In this document: positions 10,697-64,000 of the stretch, piece by piece
Layout of the letters: every line of letters begins with the position of its first letter
How positions within the stretch are numbered: position 1 is the first letter of the stretch
Source: an uncultured Pelagibacteraceae bacterium
Lineage (GTDB): Bacteria; Pseudomonadota; Alphaproteobacteria; Pelagibacterales; Pelagibacteraceae
NCBI GenBank assembly: GCA_902527215.1
Contig: CABZOF010000001.1
Coordinates: forward strand, 226,001-290,000
Direction: 5' to 3'
Length of the DNA stretch: 64,000 nucleotides
Made by a program: the position numbers and the translations under genes
Notes under the pieces: model-generated
The model's input: only the letters and a program-made list of their open reading frames with translations
The model's database searches: none
What the model was told of the DNA's origin: nothing

Positions 10697-10812
10697 GCCT
10701 GGCAATGTCCTACTCTTCCATGTCTTAAGACAAAGTACCATCGGCGCTGAAAGGCTTGACTTCCGAGTTCGGAATGGGATCGGGTATTACACTTTCGCAA
10801 TAATCACCAGGC
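10697..10812 (-). rRNA. rrf: 5S ribosomal RNA
   Basis: Reverse complement shows gcctggtgattattgcgaaagtgtaatacccgatcccattccgaactcggaagtcaagcc...gtaggacattgccaggc with terminal helix complementarity; end coordinates approximate. Confidence 0.94.
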
Positions 10813-23358: not shown

Positions 23359-24492
23359 ATGCTTAAAATGTTTAAAAATTTAATATTTGAAATTAAATCT
23401 TTTTTTTTTTCTATTAAAATGATTATAGAATTAAAAAAAATTAAGCCAAAATTTATTTTTTTTTCAGAAGAGAAATCTTATCAAAAATTTTCAAAACCAA
23501 TTATTGATGTACTTATAGATGAATATCCTAATAAAATTTATTATCTTAGTATTGATAAAAATGACAAAATCAGAAATGAAAGAGTTAGAAACTATTTTAT
23601 ACACTTTTTTTTGATTAATTTTATTTTTAATTATATTTATGCAGAAAATATATTTATGACTATTACAGATTTAGATAATCATTTAATTAAAAAAACTAAA
23701 AAAATTAATAAATATATTTATTATTTTCATTCGCCAAATAGTACAACGAAGAGTTACACAACTGAAGCATTTGATAACTACGATATAATATTATGCAATG
23801 GGGAATTTCAAATAAAGGAAATAAAGTTGAGAGAAAGACTGAAAAATTTAAACAAAAAAAAATTAATTCCAACGGGATATTTTTATCTAGATGCTCTTTC
23901 AGAAAAAATTAATCATAACAAAAATAATAATGAAATATTGATTGCTCCATCTTGGAATTATCAACATAAACATTTTATAAATGAAAATTTTTTAGAACTT
24001 TTAGATAGCCTATTGAGTAAAAATTTAAAAGTTATATTTAGACCTCATCCTGAACATTATAAAAGATCCAAAAGAATATTAGAAAAAATTAAACATAAAT
24101 TTATTAGTAAAAATTTTTTATTTGACGAAAAAATAGAAAATATAGACTCGATGGAGAAAGCAAAATGCTTAATTACTGACAGTTCTGGAATTGCAATTGA
24201 ATATATTTTAACTTTAAAAAGACCAGTTTTGTACCTAGATGAATTTGATAAAGTACATAACAAAGAATTTAGTGATTATAATGATCTAAAAACCATTGAC
24301 AGAACGATTAAAGAAAATTTCGGGTATTTAATAAAAAAACAAGATTTTGAACATATTGATATAATTATAAATAAAGCCTCTGAAGACTTTAAAAAAAAAT
24401 TATATAAGCTTGATCATTTTAAAAATAATACCTTTGCTAATTGTGGAAACACTAAAAGTTATTTTGCAAAGATTTCAAAAGAGATTCTCTAA
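23359..24492 (+). CDS. CDP-glycerol glycerophosphotransferase-like protein (TagB/TagF fold)
   Basis: EILIAPSWNYQHKHF, VIFRPHPEHYKRSKRILEKI, AKCLITDSSGIAIEYILTLKRPVLYLDE. Confidence 0.75.
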   Translation: MLKMFKNLIFEIKSFFFSIKMIIELKKIKPKFIFFSEEKSYQKFSKPIIDVLIDEYPNKIYYLSIDKNDKIRNERVRNYFIHFFLINFIFNYIYAENIFMTITDLDNHLIKKTKKINKYIYYFHSPNSTTKSYTTEAFDNYDIILCNGEFQIKEIKLRERLKNLNKKKLIPTGYFYLDALSEKINHNKNNNEILIAPSWNYQHKHFINENFLELLDSLLSKNLKVIFRPHPEHYKRSKRILEKIKHKFISKNFLFDEKIENIDSMEKAKCLITDSSGIAIEYILTLKRPVLYLDEFDKVHNKEFSDYNDLKTIDRTIKENFGYLIKKQDFEHIDIIINKASEDFKKKLYKLDHFKNNTFANCGNTKSYFAKISKEIL

Positions 24493-36125: not shown

Positions 36126-37210
36126 TTTTTTGCAACAACTATTATGGCTGGACTGAGATTTTTAAATTTCAAATATTTCATTAAAAAAACTTCGAGATAT
36201 TTAAATACAAGTTTTTGTTTCCAAGTAACTATGTTTTTATCCTTGTAAGCTATGTATTGACTTATGCCCTCATTAGAGTTGGGGAAAATAAGTGAAGGAA
36301 AATGATACATTGGAAAACAACAATAATCATCGATTTTTTTAAATCCAGCTTCTCTCAAGAGGTCTTTTAGTTCAGAAAAAGAGTAAATGTAAGTTCTGTA
36401 ATCCTTTTTTCTAAAAATTTTAGAAATAACGTTTGATATTGATCTTGGTAAAAAAGTTGTAAATTTGAGATTTACATGTGGATCTGGTCTTCCTAATAAA
36501 TAGGCATAGTTAAGTTTATTTTCAATTGCTAGAAAGAGTTGACCTCCTGTATTGAGACTGTCATAAACCTTTTTTAAAAATTCAACCTGCATATCTCTTG
36601 GATGTTTAAGTAATTTTTTTTTAATTGAACTTTTAGTTTTAGAAACCTTTTTTTCGTAATATTCACTAACAATTACTTCAGATTTTTCTGGAATCCATTC
36701 TAGAACTCCATTTACAATAGCATAATCTGCTATATCCTTAAATTTTACCTCTCTGATATCATCTTGAACCAAATGAATATTTTCTAACCCTTCTTCTATT
36801 GAGCGTGTTTTTAAAAAATTTAAAGAGTCGTAGGTTTGATCTACAGCAATTACTTGATGACCTCTCTTTGCCATACCAACAGAAAGTACACCCCACATTG
36901 AACCATAATCTATGCAAACTCCACCTTTTTTGTGATCTAGAAGTTCCAATCCTGCCTCTCTTTTTGAAGAAAATATCATTTCTTCAAATTTAGGAATAAA
37001 TGATTTTACAGCAGTTTTACAATCCTTAGTCTCTAATAATTTAGAAAACTCATTATTTTTATCTTTGGATAAATTTGACCAATAACCAGAATTTCCAGAT
37101 GAAAAAATTCCATTTTCAGACTTAGAATAAATTTTATTAAGATATTGTTTAATATAATTATTTTTTTTTTCCATTATTAATTTTTTTAATTTCGATGATA
37201 GCTCTTTCAT
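36122..37210 (-). CDS. Class I SAM-dependent methyltransferase (alternative start MEKKNN at about 37174)
   Basis: GVCIDYGSMWGVLSVGMAKRGHQVIAVDQTYDSL, ADYAIVNGVLEWIPE, LNTGGQLFLAIENKLNYAYLLGRPDPH. Confidence 0.82.
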   Translation of the reverse strand: MKELSSKLKKLIMEKKNNYIKQYLNKIYSKSENGIFSSGNSGYWSNLSKDKNNEFSKLLETKDCKTAVKSFIPKFEEMIFSSKREAGLELLDHKKGGVCIDYGSMWGVLSVGMAKRGHQVIAVDQTYDSLNFLKTRSIEEGLENIHLVQDDIREVKFKDIADYAIVNGVLEWIPEKSEVIVSEYYEKKVSKTKSSIKKKLLKHPRDMQVEFLKKVYDSLNTGGQLFLAIENKLNYAYLLGRPDPHVNLKFTTFLPRSISNVISKIFRKKDYRTYIYSFSELKDLLREAGFKKIDDYCCFPMYHFPSLIFPNSNEGISQYIAYKDKNIVTWKQKLVFKYLEVFLMKYLKFKNLSPAIIVVAKK

Positions 37211-38030
37211 CCCAGGCTGAATTTATACCACTGTAAGTCAATAAAAAAAAACGAAATAAATGTTTGATGTACCAAATTAAAAACAAATAAAATGAAAAGT
37301 TATAATTTAAGTAAATATCAATGATCATAGTAAATAAAATAAAATCTACTGTTCTAGCTCTATCATCCATAAACCCTTTAAAATAATACATCCATTTGGG
37401 ATATTTTATTTTATTATTTTTTTTGTTGTGTTTTCTATTAGATTTTTCATCTGCATTACCTATATTATGTTTTGTAAAAATATCTTTAATTTTATTTTTT
37501 CTCAATTCATCTAGAATTAAATTTTTTCCCAGCAGAATAGGTATTCCAAAGTATAAAAAAGGAATTGATACTATTAGATAAATTAAAACATCATAACCTG
37601 TTTGATTTAAAACAAAAAAACCCAATCCAACATTAAAACCAATGGAGTTTAAATGTGCTCCATAAGAATCTAAAATATGACCCTTTAAAGTTGTTTTATA
37701 TTTTATTCTAGCTAAATAACCATCACTCCAATCAAAAATACTTTTGTTGAAAAAAATAATAATTCCTGCAATATTGTAGTTTATATTTGGTATCGTAAGA
37801 AAAACACATCCAATAATACCACACAAACCATAGACAATCGTAACCATGTTTGGTGTAACACGAGATTTTAATAGAAAAAAAATAAGTATAACGCTACTAT
37901 ACATATAATATCTCGCTTTAAAATATGTGTATGGGTTTTTTTTTACGTCATTCAAGTATGGAAATCTTTTTAATTGGCGTTTAAAAATAAATTTTTTAAT
38001 ATCTTTTATCTTAAGAATTTTATAATTCAT
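37158..38030 (-). CDS. CDP-alcohol phosphatidyltransferase family protein
   Basis: DWSDGYLARIKYKTTLKGHILDSYGAH matches D(x2)DG(x2)AR(x8)G(x3)D but has Ala at the last Asp position. Confidence 0.75.
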   Translation of the reverse strand: MNYKILKIKDIKKFIFKRQLKRFPYLNDVKKNPYTYFKARYYMYSSVILIFFLLKSRVTPNMVTIVYGLCGIIGCVFLTIPNINYNIAGIIIFFNKSIFDWSDGYLARIKYKTTLKGHILDSYGAHLNSIGFNVGLGFFVLNQTGYDVLIYLIVSIPFLYFGIPILLGKNLILDELRKNKIKDIFTKHNIGNADEKSNRKHNKKNNKIKYPKWMYYFKGFMDDRARTVDFILFTMIIDIYLNYNFSFYLFLIWYIKHLFRFFLLTYSGINSAWDERAIIEIKKINNGKKK

Positions 38031-38177
38031 TAATCAGGTCTAATTACTATGAGTTATTATTTAAAGTAAATAAAATAAATTTTTATTTAGAGCAATATTT
38101 CTTTTATATTAGTCTATATTAGATTATTTTGTATTAAAAAATTTTCAATTTAGATTAATTATAATTATATATTGTAT

Positions 38178-39482
38178 ATGAAGAAAAATAAAAAAGTTTA
38201 TGTAGGTTTATCAGCTGATATCTTGCACAAAGGACACATAAATATTCTAAAAACTGCTAACTCCTATGGAGATGTCTATGTTGGGCTTTTAACAGATAAA
38301 GCGATAGCAAGTTACAAAAATATTCCTTATTTAAATTATGAAAAAAGAAAAATAGTTTTAGAAAATATAAAATATGTTAAAAAGGTAATTCCTCAAAGAA
38401 CCCTTGATTATGTAGAAAATCTAAATTTAATTAAACCAGATTTTGTTGTACATGGTGATGACTGGAAATCTGGGGTACAAAAAAAAACAAGAAAAAGAGT
38501 AATTCAAACATTAAAAATTTGGTCGGGTAAACTTATAGAACCAAAATATACAAAAAATATTTCATCCACCTCAATTAAAAAAGAATTGGAAAATATAATT
38601 GCTTCACCAGAAAATAGAGTCTCAAGACTCAAACGATTAATGAAATCAAAAAATATTGTAAGAATTTTAGAGTCTCATAATTCACTTACAGGATTAATAA
38701 TTGAAAATTTAAGTATTAAAGAAAATAAAAAAAAAATTGAATTCGATGGGATGTGGTCTTCAAGTTTAACTGACTCTGCAACTAAAGGAAAGCCAGACAA
38801 TTCATCAGTTGATTTTTCATCAAGAATAGCATCCCTTAATGAAATGATGGATGTGACCTCAAAACCATTAGTTTTTGATGCAGATAATGGAGGACAATTA
38901 GAGCATTTATCTTTTTTAGTTAGATCCTTAGAGAGGTCAGGTGCCTCAGCAATAATCATGGAGGACAAAGTGGGTCTTAAGAAAAATTCATTATTTAAAA
39001 ACCAAGCTGATGCTAAACAAGATAAACCTCACATATTTGCAAATAAAATAAAAAAAATATGTAATTCAAGACAGCAAAGTGATTTTATGGTTATAGCGAG
39101 AATTGAGAGTTTTATTTTAGGAAAAGGGTTGAATGATGCGCTTAAAAGAGCTGAAATTTATTCAAAAGCAGGTGCAGATGCGATTCTTATACATAGTAAA
39201 GAAAAAACCCCAGCAGAAATTTTTTTATTTGCAAAAAAATTTAGAAAAAGCAAAAATTTTATTCCTTTGGTTTCTGTTCCATCCACTTATTCTAAGGTTT
39301 ATGAAAATGATTTAATTAAAAATGGTTTCAAATTAGTAATTTATGCCAATCAATTGTTAAGAGCAGCATACCCGGCAATGCAAAATACAGCAAAAACAAT
39401 TTTAAAAAATAGAAGGGCTTTTGAAGCAGATAAAAAAATCATACCAATTAAGGAAATAATAAGTTTAATCAAAAATGATTAA
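38178..39482 (+). CDS. Fusion of N-terminal cytidylyltransferase domain with phosphoenolpyruvate mutase
   Basis: N-terminal [22 protein letters not shown] (nucleotidyltransferase HxGH-type) and C-terminal PEP mutase EDK(X5)NS motif [30 protein letters not shown] at 38178 preferred to the listed TTG at 38172. Confidence 0.92.
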
Positions 39483-40578
39483 CGTAAGTTCTTTAATAAA
39501 ATTATTAAATAAAAATAAAAGTGATTTTTTTACAGGAGTGCCTGACAGTGTTTTAAAGGAGTTGTCAGCGGCTTTACAAAATCAAAGTAAAAAAAAACAT
39601 ATTATTGCAACTAGTGAAGGTTCAGCTATTTCAATAGGTATTGGTCATTACTTATCAACAAAAAAAGTGCCTGTTATTTATATGCAAAACTCAGGTTTAT
39701 CTAATGCATTAAATCCTTTAATTTCCATAGCTCATAAAAAAGTCTATTCTATACCACTTATTTTAATAATTGGATGGAGAGGGTCTCCAAATATTAAAAA
39801 AGATGAACCTCAGCACAATGTAAAAGGTAAAATTACTGAAAAAATTTTAAAACTATTAAATATAAAATATACAATTATAAGATCAGTACCTGATTTAAAA
39901 AAATTTGAAAAGCAGATTAAGTTTGCAAAAAAAAATAATTCTATTGTAGCTTGTTTGATTGAACAGAAAACTTTAGAAAAAAGTAAAACAAAAAGTAAAA
40001 AAAAAGATTTTTATAATTTAAACAAAGAAATATTTTTAAAAACTTTAATAAATAGTTTGAAAAAAAATACAAAAATTATCTCTAGTACCGGTTATAACTC
40101 GAGAGAATTAATGTATATTAGAGAAAAATATAATATTAAAAATAGCAAAGATTTTTACATGGTTGGTGGTATGGGCCATACTTCATCTGTGGCACTAGGA
40201 TATTCATTATCAACAAAACATAAAACCATTTGTATAGATGGAGATGGCTCACTTTTAATGCATCTTGGATCAATTAAAACTTTAGGGACTTTTGCTAATG
40301 AAAATTTGAAATATATATTGATGAATAATAATGCTCATGATTCTGTGGGTGGCCAAAGAACATACGCAAATAAAATTAATTTTAATAAATTATCTAAAAG
40401 TCTTGGTTTTAAAAAGTTTCATATCATTTCAAATAAGAAAAATTTAAAAGAAAAAATTAATAAATTTCTTAGTGAGAGAAATATAAGTTTTTTAGAAGTA
40501 AAGGTAGCAAATAATAAAATAAATGAACTTCCAAGACCATCAAATTTAATTGAAATTAAAAATGAATTTATGAAATAA
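39475..40578 (+). CDS. Phosphonopyruvate decarboxylase (TPP-dependent)
   Basis: [87 protein letters not shown]. Confidence 0.93.
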
Positions 40579-41685
40579 ATGGTGAACTCGACTAAAGATA
40601 TAAAAAAATTTATAAATGATAAAGGTTTCAAAAAAATTTTTATCCTATGTGGAGAAAAATCTTTTATAATTTCTGGCGCTGAAGATATTTTTAAAAAAAT
40701 ACTAAAAAGTAAAGAAATTAAATTATTTTATAAAAAATCAAAGATACCAATTTTGGATGAATTAATTAATATTATTAAAAATATTAAAAATTTTAAACCA
40801 GATTTAATTTTAGCAATAGGGGGTGGTGCAGTAATAGATTATGCTAAAATAGCAAATGTTGTTGATGTAAGACCTGACCTAGCAAAACTAATTGTTAATT
40901 ACTCTTACCCTTTCAAAAAAAAATTTACCAAACTTGCAGTCATTCCTACAACGGCAGGTTCTGGGGCTGAAGTTACATCGAATGCTGTAATTTACGTAAA
41001 TGGTATTAAGCATTCTTTTGAAAATGAATTACTGATCCCTGATAATTTTTTTCTTATTCCAGAGTTTTTAATTTCAGCTCCTAATAGTATAAAAGCCCCA
41101 GCAGGTTTTGACGCTATTGCTCAAGCATTGGAATCTTTAGTTTCCAAAAAATCAAATGATATAAGCGTTGATTTTGCTATTAAATCTTTAAAAATTTCAA
41201 CTCAAAGTTTTATTTCATTTTTAGAGAGACCAGACATGAAAAATGCTACAGAAATGAGTATAGCTGCAAATCTTGCTGGTAAAGCAATAAACATATCTAA
41301 AACAACTGTCCCACATGCAGTGTCTTATCCATTTACTTCATTATTCAATATAAGCCACGGACATGCAGTTAGTTTATTTTTTGAAAAATTTTTCAAATTC
41401 AATTACGATAATTTAGAAAAATCTGAGACTAATTTTAATTTAAAAAAAAGATATGATCTAATATTTGATTTATTTGGTGTAAATAATATAGACAGTTTCT
41501 GTTCGAAAATAACTTTAATAAAAAAAAAATCTTTTCTTGAGGATAATTTATTGAAAATGAATATTAATGTTAACAATGACATTGATAAAATTGTAAAAGG
41601 TATAAATTTATTAAGATTAGGAAATAATCCTATAAATATAAATGAAAATAGTATTGTAAAATTAATTTTAAATAAAAATGATTGA
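40579..41685 (+). CDS. Iron-containing alcohol dehydrogenase, probable phosphonoacetaldehyde reductase
   Basis: ILAIGGGAVIDYAKI, VIPTTAGSGAEVTSNAVIY, GFDAIAQALES, PHAVSYPFTSLFNISHGHAVSL; position directly after phosphonopyruvate decarboxylase. Confidence 0.85.
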   Translation: MVNSTKDIKKFINDKGFKKIFILCGEKSFIISGAEDIFKKILKSKEIKLFYKKSKIPILDELINIIKNIKNFKPDLILAIGGGAVIDYAKIANVVDVRPDLAKLIVNYSYPFKKKFTKLAVIPTTAGSGAEVTSNAVIYVNGIKHSFENELLIPDNFFLIPEFLISAPNSIKAPAGFDAIAQALESLVSKKSNDISVDFAIKSLKISTQSFISFLERPDMKNATEMSIAANLAGKAINISKTTVPHAVSYPFTSLFNISHGHAVSLFFEKFFKFNYDNLEKSETNFNLKKRYDLIFDLFGVNNIDSFCSKITLIKKKSFLEDNLLKMNINVNNDIDKIVKGINLLRLGNNPININENSIVKLILNKND

Positions 41686-42581
41686 TAAAAATTTTTGTAT
41701 TCATATTAAAATTCCTGATATTTTTTATGCTTATGTATAATATCTATAGAAAAACTATTTTTAGCTTTTTACTTTTTTGCTTTGTTTCAACATTAATATT
41801 AAATGTGTTCAGCATTTACTATAGCCCATTAAATTATTATGATAACTTTTATAAGAATAATGTGATTACAAAAAGTGAAGGACTTGTTCCAGGTTATCAC
41901 ACAAGACTTCGTGACTTAGATCAACTTGAAATTTTAATCAATACCCAGCAGCAAAATTTCAATGTCGAAAAAACAACTTCAATAATTTATGAGTCTTTAA
42001 TTCATGGAGGAAGAGATATTTTGATTTTTGAAAATTGGTTTTTATGGTTATTATCTAATTTTTATAAACCTTTAAAAAAAACACAGAATGTTAAAAAAAT
42101 TGTGGCAAGCGGTATGGCAAATTGCAACGAGGCTAATGGTGTTTTAAATAAGATAGCTTCAATAAACAATGTGCCTGCGAGATTTATAAGTTTAGATGGT
42201 CATATAATCAGTGAACTTAAAATAAATAATAAATGGATTATGGTAGATGCAGATTTTGGAATAGTTTTTCCATTTGGATATGATAAAATTTTTGATGGTG
42301 ATATTTTTTATGTCAAAGAAACTCTTAAAAATTTATTAATTGAGCGCGGTTTTAGTTTAGATACAAAAAAGTTAGGCGAAAGAACTGTAAAAGAATATCA
42401 GAATCTTTTATTATCTACTGAAAACAATACTATTCATGAAATTGGTGCTGCAATTAGTCCTCGTCTTAAAATAGTAGAAATTTTTGGGGAAATAATGAAT
42501 TGGGGGTTGTCATTTTTGTTTGGTATTACACTGATAATATTTTCTAATAAGAAAAAAAAACTTTATAAAAACAAACACTAA
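41682..42581 (+). CDS. Membrane-anchored transglutaminase-like cysteine protein
   Basis: N-terminal TMs, VASGMANCNEANGVLNKIASINNVPARFISLDGHIISELKINNKWIMVDADFG (Cys/His/Asp arrangement), C-terminal TM; TTG start. Confidence 0.6.
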   Translation: MIKIFVFILKFLIFFMLMYNIYRKTIFSFLLFCFVSTLILNVFSIYYSPLNYYDNFYKNNVITKSEGLVPGYHTRLRDLDQLEILINTQQQNFNVEKTTSIIYESLIHGGRDILIFENWFLWLLSNFYKPLKKTQNVKKIVASGMANCNEANGVLNKIASINNVPARFISLDGHIISELKINNKWIMVDADFGIVFPFGYDKIFDGDIFYVKETLKNLLIERGFSLDTKKLGERTVKEYQNLLLSTENNTIHEIGAAISPRLKIVEIFGEIMNWGLSFLFGITLIIFSNKKKKLYKNKH

Positions 42582-44374
42582 TAATTATTATAATTTTTGA
42601 AAAAAGAGATTAAAGATTTAGTTGGATTTTTGGAGCTTTTTGCATATTTGTTAGAAAAAAAAACTTTAGCATCCTGAACTTTTTTTTGAGACCACCATTG
42701 ATCCACATTATCCCAAACCTCATTTACTTTTTTTGAAATTGATTTTGATGAAAAATATACTAATCCTGCATCAACTAATATCTGGTAATCGGACTTTACT
42801 GAATCACGTAAATGGTCAAAACCATTTTGCCAGAAAACCATTGTGGGAATATTTAGAGAAAGATTTTCTAAAAAACCTGTAGTGTCATAGCTATGTATTA
42901 CTAGCCTACTGTCGGCTATTAATTTTTCAAGTCTTGTTTTGCCATCATCTATTATAAGTGTTTTGTCAAAATCGTGCCATCTAGAAATTTCATTTAAGTT
43001 TATGTTAGCATTTGATGCGCTTAATCGAATTAGAAGATTTTTCTTAGGATCTTGAGATAACTCTCTTACAAAATTTTTCTGGTCTTCAAAATAATCAGTA
43101 AATTCATCATGAGTGTCCCAAGGCATCCTCCTTATAAATTGAGGTCTTTCGACAAGTAAAAGTTTACCTTTGTTGTTGTATTTGCTTTTTACTCCACTTG
43201 TTTTAAAAATATACATCGGAATATATTTTGATAATTTACTTTCCCAGCCCCATGTAAGAAATTTATCAGCAGTTTGCTCTTCTACTCTTGGAAAAAAATA
43301 CCTTCCAGTAAAATAATTATTTCCATGTTGGCCAACATAATATTTAGAACCATTTTCTGTTTTAATAGCTGTATATAACTTAAAGATTTCATCAGTACCA
43401 AAGTTATTACTGGTAAAAATAAATTTAGGTTTTTTTGGCCAAGGTTGTTTATTTACTATTTTCTTTAATTCTTCAAATCCTTCTAAATGACAGACTGGGA
43501 GCAATTCAAATAAAAGATTACGCAAAACATTTTCTAAATCATCTTCTGATTTTTTTAATAGTTTTTTAGTCAATCTTTTACGCAAAGATTGATTAGGTTT
43601 TGCATTGATATTAACTTCAATTTTTTTCCAAAATTGTGGTAATTGACCTAAGTTAATTTCTAACTTTGCTAATTGTTTTGAATTAATATAAGTATTTATT
43701 AGAAAAGCATCTTTATTCCTGACTAATTTCTCAGCTATTTTTTTATAACCTTGGTAAATATAATTTTTAATATTTTTCTTATTAACGTGTTTTTTATTTG
43801 TATCGTTAGTTTCTAAAACCTTATATGAATACACTTCATTATTATCATCAATAAAGTTAATGGGAATTTTATTATTATTTATTAAAGTTAAAATTCTACC
43901 AATTAATATATTATTCCATTTAGGATTATCAAAAAAGTAAGTAAAACCTGCTCTTAAATGAGGTATTGCTAGCGCAGAATAATTTGAATTATATACTGTA
44001 GTTCCTGAAATTTCCTCTAATTGCAAACATTGCTTTAAAGTATTAATTCGATTAAGTAACAATTGCAAGGTACTCCTAAGCCAGGTACCTACTATTATTT
44101 TCCAAAATCTATTTTTATGATTGGTCTGAAAATTTTCATTTAAAATTTTACAAATTTCTGGAAGTATTTTTTGCTCGAGATATTTTACCTTTAAATCATC
44201 TCTATCTTTAATATTTCTTTCTAAACCATAAGGTTTTGCAACAATAGCATCCATATTTTTCCAAATATGTTTCCTTTTATACAAACAACACCATTTTCCT
44301 AAAAAAATTACTGGACGATCAAACTTCCAGGTTATCTCATTTTCGGTTGTGATTAGAAATCTTTTTTTTTTCAA
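42578..44374 (-). CDS. LIC12162-family putative transferase
   Basis: FLITTENEITWKFDRPVIFLGKWCCLYKR, KYYVGQHGNNYFTGRY, SRLVIHSYDTTGFLENLSLNIPTMVFW. Confidence 0.75.
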   Translation of the reverse strand: MKKKRFLITTENEITWKFDRPVIFLGKWCCLYKRKHIWKNMDAIVAKPYGLERNIKDRDDLKVKYLEQKILPEICKILNENFQTNHKNRFWKIIVGTWLRSTLQLLLNRINTLKQCLQLEEISGTTVYNSNYSALAIPHLRAGFTYFFDNPKWNNILIGRILTLINNNKIPINFIDDNNEVYSYKVLETNDTNKKHVNKKNIKNYIYQGYKKIAEKLVRNKDAFLINTYINSKQLAKLEINLGQLPQFWKKIEVNINAKPNQSLRKRLTKKLLKKSEDDLENVLRNLLFELLPVCHLEGFEELKKIVNKQPWPKKPKFIFTSNNFGTDEIFKLYTAIKTENGSKYYVGQHGNNYFTGRYFFPRVEEQTADKFLTWGWESKLSKYIPMYIFKTSGVKSKYNNKGKLLLVERPQFIRRMPWDTHDEFTDYFEDQKNFVRELSQDPKKNLLIRLSASNANINLNEISRWHDFDKTLIIDDGKTRLEKLIADSRLVIHSYDTTGFLENLSLNIPTMVFWQNGFDHLRDSVKSDYQILVDAGLVYFSSKSISKKVNEVWDNVDQWWSQKKVQDAKVFFSNKYAKSSKNPTKSLISFFKNYNNY

Positions 44375-63790: not shown

Positions 63791-63854
63791 ATTTTGACAG
63801 ATATTTAGACCTAAATATATCCTATATCTGAGTAATAAATTTTTTTCAGTGCAT

Positions 63855-64000
63855 AAATCAAGCCAATTGAGCTATTAGTACTGGTCAGCTGCACGCATTA
63901 CTGCGCTTCCACACCCAGCCTATCAACGTGGTAGTCTACCACGGCTCTATAGGAAGAACTAGTTTTGAGGTGAGTTTCCCGCTTAGATGCTTTCAGCAGT
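63855..64000 (-). rRNA. rrl: 23S ribosomal RNA, 3' end only (continues beyond the window)
   Basis: Reverse complement reads actgctgaaagcatctaagcgggaaactcacctcaaaac...gctgaccagtactaatagctcaattggcttgattt, the conserved 23S 3' terminus; exact end approximate. Confidence 0.93.

Follow-up and report, generated by a model that had tools for sequence, protein, structure and literature searches.

A cytidylyltransferase-PEP mutase fusion operon in a SAR11 hypervariable region and its predicted route to 2-hydroxyethylphosphonate on surface glycans

Few marine cells are as abundant as SAR11 bacteria, and esters of 2-hydroxyethylphosphonate (HEP) occur in marine high-molecular-weight organic phosphorus. 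A gene cluster in the genome of an uncultured member of the Pelagibacteraceae raises the question of which phosphonate such a cell might make and where it might be placed. According to passages of Acker et al. 2022 (PMC8931226), the phosphoenolpyruvate (PEP) mutase gene pepM occurs in about 18% of SAR11 cells and SAR11 could, by the authors' estimate, supply most of the phosphonate of the sunlit ocean. The same passages propose a scheme that leads via phosphonopyruvate decarboxylase (Ppd) and a dehydrogenase to HEP, together with a surface role for SAR11 phosphonate, and describe phosphonate production as unconfirmed in SAR11. We analysed a stretch of 64,000 nucleotides, here called the window, that carries a pepM operon; its features are listed in Table 1.

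Table 1. Positions of the features discussed in the text, with the basis of each assignment.
Feature	Position	Strand	Basis
5S rRNA, one edge of HVR2	10697-10811	-	Rfam RF00001, 91 bits
TagF/TarL-like transferase of GT-B fold, candidate for transfer from CMP-HEP to an acceptor	23359-24492	+	A1 profile, PDB, Foldseek
Membrane protein, 580 aa	24521-26263	-	homologue (49% identity) next to the TagF-like gene of L131/G266
CDP-alcohol phosphotransferase homologue, transcribed away from the operon	37158-38030	-	PF01066, 39.5 bits (> 22)
Bifunctional enzyme of Fom1 type, with cytidylyltransferase at the N terminus (HKGH, ISST) and PEP mutase at the C terminus (EDK-x5-NS)	38178-39482	+	TIGR02320, PF01467, PDB 5x3d and 1m1b, motifs conserved in 76 fusions
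Phosphonopyruvate decarboxylase (Ppd, TPP-dependent)	39475-40578	+	TIGR03297, 370.3 bits (> 312.5); TPP-binding GDG motif conserved
Iron-type alcohol dehydrogenase, putative phosphonoacetaldehyde reductase	40579-41685	+	PF00465/PF25137; below TIGR03405 cut-off; alignment
Fourth gene: membrane protein with weak transglutaminase-like core	41682-42581	+	4-nt overlap with ADH gene; PF01841, E 0.065
LIC12162-family transferase	42578-44374	leftward run, converging on the operon	TIGR04331, 342 bits (> 225)
23S rRNA (3' end), opposite edge of HVR2	63854-64000	-	Rfam RF02541, 115.5 bits

Four plus strand genes in the ORF list of the window, each overlapping or abutting the next, make up the operon. The first encodes a cytidylyltransferase-PEP mutase fusion, which more probably starts at the ATG at 38178; counted from a TTG, the ORF would span 38172-39482. 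It overlaps ppd by 8 nt, and the gene for an iron-type alcohol dehydrogenase (Fe-ADH) abuts the end of ppd directly, so that the tightly packed run of three genes described in the first-pass annotation is borne out by the ORFs. Among the 300 genomes searched in the genus, the fourth gene is full length in this one only, and it is not conserved in other cassettes; its protein model (pLDDT 42) was of too low confidence to use.

Both domains of the fusion are recognized by their family models. The mutase domain scored 369.1 bits against the PEP mutase model TIGR02320 (cut-off 319.55) and far under the cut-offs for phosphonopyruvate hydrolase (TIGR02321, 152 vs 374 bits) and methylisocitrate lyase (prpB, 80 vs 354 bits), and its closest PDB relative is PEP mutase 1m1b (E 8e-47). 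The profile scores thus set it apart from isocitrate lyase-type enzymes, as does the EDK-x5-NS motif, which distinguishes PEP mutase from these relatives and had been named as its hallmark from the sequence. This motif occupies residues 264-273 of the fusion, and its EDK and NS positions are invariant in an alignment of 76 fusions from many phyla. The N-terminal part scored 53.9 bits against PF01467 (cut-off 21), and its best PDB match is the cytidylyltransferase domain of Fom1 (5x3d, E 5e-51, 132 residues). It carries the nucleotidyltransferase motifs HKGH (residues 19-22) and ISST (residues 130-133), and the 76 fusions show no or almost no variation at HxGH, VHGDDW, the mutase EDK/NS and further active-site positions. 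The assembly encodes three PF01467 proteins including the fused domain, which is the sole match to the fusion query. The second gene likewise retains the identity first given to it, that of a TPP-dependent phosphonopyruvate decarboxylase (Table 1).

The assignment of the third gene is less direct. Its product scored above the cut-offs of PF00465 and PF25137 and well below that of the phosphonate Fe-ADH PsrA model (TIGR03405, 118 vs 423.7 bits), and we infer phosphonoacetaldehyde as its substrate from gene context because of this low score. The usual metal site of Fe-ADHs consists of Asp-His-His-His; here, the alignment places Gln182 at the second ligand, while Asp178, His246 and His260 are retained. 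Both features would fit an enzyme acting on another aldehyde, in which case the cassette would give a different phosphonate. We regard this as very improbable, since 44 of 48 loci have the dehydrogenase together with adjacent Ppd and fused PepM, since Gln is the commoner form among cassette ADHs (55 of 67, from many phyla, with His in the remaining 12), and since the operon is devoid of any other carbonyl-producing enzyme. The route from PepM, Ppd and a reductase to HEP, as originally proposed, is therefore backed by family cut-offs and motifs in its first two steps and by context in the third.

Taken in order, PEP mutase would convert PEP to phosphonopyruvate, Ppd would decarboxylate this to phosphonoacetaldehyde, and the Fe-ADH would reduce the aldehyde to HEP. 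The fused Fom1-type cytidylyltransferase is then predicted to form CMP-HEP from CTP and HEP. Judged from the sequence, it is quite likely that the operon makes HEP and activates it as CMP-HEP. That the fused nucleotidyltransferase implies CMP activation of the phosphonate thus stands as a prediction, now backed by the PF01467 score, the 5x3d match, the HxGH and ISST motifs and the conserved context. The HEP might also be processed further, for example by MpnS.

As to whether the cell would be a producer rather than only a consumer of phosphonate, PhnJ of the C-P lyase was not found in the 92.7% complete assembly, and the control search was positive in E. coli. This agrees with the producer reading as far as the C-P lyase route is concerned. 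In passages of PMC8931226, the SAR11 strain HTCC7217 counts by its genotype as producer and consumer alike. No aminotransferase for 2-aminoethylphosphonate (AEP) scored above cut-off in this assembly.

Relatives of the fusion in Pelagibacteraceae single-cell genomes and MAGs are up to 85% identical, and 29 of 300 Pelagibacter genomes, many of them incomplete, encode the fusion (E 1e-80). The gene context was compared in 48 loci that extend 3.5 kb or more to each side and come from the 80 top matches of this fusion; counts from them stand for this fusion type and not for all PepM. These loci span SAR11, Bacteroidetes, Gammaproteobacteria, Aminicenantes, Actinobacteria and candidate phyla; Ppd was detected in 44 of the 48, as was Fe-ADH. 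Some SAR11 loci hold further genes: a PhyH-type dioxygenase gene, which might serve in phosphonate modification, adjoins or lies inside the PepM-Ppd-FeADH run in five (L034, L046, L063, L115, L117), and an APS-kinase-like gene is close to the cassette in five (L040, L046, L063, L116, L125).

A different gene content was found in nine SAR11 loci (L126-L134, from genomes G249, G236, G237, G064, G019, G266, G003, G255 and G199). These encode the fusion together with a class V aminotransferase and a stand-alone cytidylyltransferase, and eight of them Ppd. The best NCBIfam matches of the aminotransferase are AEP aminotransferases (PhnW-AepZ), with scores well below cut-off. The Fe-ADH is missing from seven of the nine loci; this is the swap expected if aminotransferase and dehydrogenase both act on phosphonoacetaldehyde. 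The other two (L133 and L134) additionally carry an Fe-ADH beside a second stand-alone cytidylyltransferase. The simplest reading of these gene contents is that SAR11 cassettes fall into two types, one for HEP, to which that of the window belongs, and one for AEP, and that two genomes contain both. In a tree of cytidylyltransferase domains, the stand-alone copies next to the aminotransferase form a starred clade, with weak support for the deep forks. The fused cytidylyltransferase has an altered HxGH or ISST in five loci with intact mutase motif (L126, L122, L124, L125, L050). Decay of the fused domain where a stand-alone copy exists did not emerge as a clean pattern, as it is clearly degenerate only in L126, and in L122 and L124 HxGH varies with no stand-alone copy within the stretch examined.

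The surroundings of the operon bear on the fate of the activated phosphonate. The hypervariable region HVR2 of SAR11 is described in passages of PMC2217521 as an island for surface properties between the 5S and 23S rRNA genes. Since 5S and 23S rRNA genes bracket this part of the window as in that definition, the cassette lies inside HVR2, in agreement with the location in a surface-glycan island that was first suggested for it. Positions 10697-64000 comprise essentially the whole region, about 53 kb from the 5S rRNA to the 23S rRNA end. Neighbours of the cassette within HVR2 include a CDP-glucose pathway (TIGR02622, 457 bits), NeuB-type genes and glycosyltransferases. To call the three genes a complete core was too generous, as none of them encodes an enzyme that would attach the activated phosphonate to an acceptor.

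A candidate for this step is encoded 14 kb upstream of the operon. In several phyla, fused PepM has members of one protein family as neighbours; we built a profile (A1) from this family, and its search against this genome returned one gene, that of the TagF/TarL-like protein (E 6.3e-97). The protein is 57% identical to the one encoded immediately upstream of pepM in locus L031. By profile comparison, the A1 family is related with 99.5% probability to a second family (A2), which clearly belongs to the PF04464 group, one member scoring 185.8 bits against that model. A further profile of A1 plus the window protein (A4) matched TarL (E 2e-23) and TagF (E 1e-20) in the PDB, and the top Foldseek hits of the AlphaFold model (pLDDT 89.5) were TagF (E 2e-13). 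In Pfam, neither this protein nor any other in the genome reached the PF04464 gathering score; this null result is misleading because the divergent TagF-like family does not match that model. Of the family, all 17 members have His230 and Asp274, and 15 have His124. The window protein resembles the teichoic acid polymerases TagF and TarL in its fold and in conserved positions of His and Asp, and differs from them in being only about 14% identical, in lacking the extra N-terminal part of TagF, and in its expected donor, which would be CMP-HEP instead of CDP-glycerol or CDP-ribitol.

TagF-like genes adjoin fused PepM in SAR11 and in other phyla. Family and fusion occur together in seven of 300 Pelagibacter genomes where 2.1 would be expected (Fisher p 0.0023, uncorrected for relatedness); with this genome left out, p is 0.0079, likewise uncorrected. 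Fifteen of the 22 genomes with a TagF-like gene, many of them incomplete, show no fusion, and for this reason the family is probably not specific for phosphonate and serves other donors too. Next to the TagF-like gene lies that of the 580 aa membrane protein, which had no Pfam match at E 0.001 and, judged by eye, possibly has a C-terminal domain of the sulfatase or phosphoglycerol-transferase type. It was found in two of 300 genus genomes (this one and G266), each time adjacent to the TagF-like gene, and both genomes encode pepM. We tentatively consider the TagF-like protein as the candidate that moves HEP from CMP-HEP to a surface acceptor, at somewhat less than even odds.

Two other transferase genes lie closer to the operon. 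The CDP-alcohol phosphotransferase homologue, 141 bp from the fusion ORF, belongs to a family that uses CDP-alcohols and is the third such gene in the genome, the two others lying elsewhere; it could use CMP-HEP to place HEP on a lipid alcohol and so yield a phosphonolipid. However, its motif (D-WS-DG-YL-AR...G-HIL-D-SYG-A) has Ala in place of the fourth of the four aspartates, and the gene is absent from 299 other genus genomes, 28 of which encode the fusion. It also overlaps a methyltransferase gene in a leftward run that extends into the CDP-glucose pathway. Given the missing aspartate and its absence from the 299 genomes we demoted it as main transferase, and the lipid route appears quite unlikely. 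The LIC12162-family transferase has a homologue that directly adjoins ppd in L128, and its convergence on the operon and clear family score make it another candidate for attaching HEP. However, it is part of a leftward run of CMP-sugar and NeuB-type genes, which make a nonulosonate-type sugar its more natural substrate, and such genes are found in few pepM loci; a role in HEP transfer is thus highly doubtful.

Comparison with known systems places these observations in context. The closest is Fom1 of the Streptomyces fosfomycin pathway, with the same order of two domains, a closely matching cytidylyltransferase and the same expected substrates. According to passages of Rice et al. 2019 (PMC6697681), the cytidylyltransferase domain of Fom1 makes CMP-HEP from CTP and HEP, and PF01467-PepM fusions account for 23.6% of PepM proteins. 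Fom1 itself uses CMP-HEP as a transient intermediate (cited in PMC6697681), and HEP is the substrate of MpnS in the passages of PMC8931226, so that the operon might instead lead, by MpnS or Fom-like reactions, to a soluble phosphonate or to methylphosphonate, with CMP-HEP occurring only transiently. This appears unlikely: the cassette is part of a surface-glycan island that also encodes a TagF-like protein, which sets it apart from Fom1 and its small-molecule antibiotic, the neighbours of the cassette that were examined are sugar-nucleotide and transferase genes, and TagF-like transferases recur next to the cassette. The phosphonoglycan or phosphonolipid suggested by the first-pass annotation is therefore retained in part: the presence of a TagF/TarL-like transferase gene in this island speaks more for a surface acceptor than for a soluble product, the nature of the acceptor is a prediction, and the lipid route is the weaker one.

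The Pnt pathways, as described in the same passages of PMC6697681, likewise tailor the surface with a phosphonate activated by a cytidylyltransferase, which is often fused to PepM; PntC differs in belonging to PF12804 (LicC-like) and acting on AEP, whereas the window domain is of PF01467 with HEP as expected substrate. The SAR11 and Prochlorococcus pepM cassettes in the passages of PMC8931226 share with the window the organism group, the marker motif and the route via Ppd and a dehydrogenase to HEP; the main text, as far as these passages represent it, makes no mention of a cytidylyltransferase fusion or a CMP-HEP transferase. Both pepM in SAR11 and Fom1-type fusions are thus already published, and the window is a well-preserved example. 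The link to a TagF-like transferase and the division into HEP and AEP cassettes do not appear in the passages of PMC8931226 and PMC6697681, an absence that counts for little.

In the reading that we favour, HEP would be transferred from CMP-HEP, most likely by the TagF/TarL-like protein, to a lipid-linked or surface glycan that the surrounding HVR2 genes produce. Such HEP-specific surface tailoring, while other SAR11 genomes have an AEP cassette with aminotransferase and a stand-alone cytidylyltransferase of its own, has in our estimate a probability of roughly one in three. If true, it would name an enzyme source for the HEP esters of marine high-molecular-weight organic phosphorus. The window offers an intact cassette for which the expected product can be stated (HEP and CMP-HEP) and a named candidate for the transfer step, as well as a contrast of HEP-type and AEP-type cassettes within one genus. 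Which phosphonate SAR11 makes, and where it is placed, thereby becomes a matter of a short list of enzymes that can be assayed.
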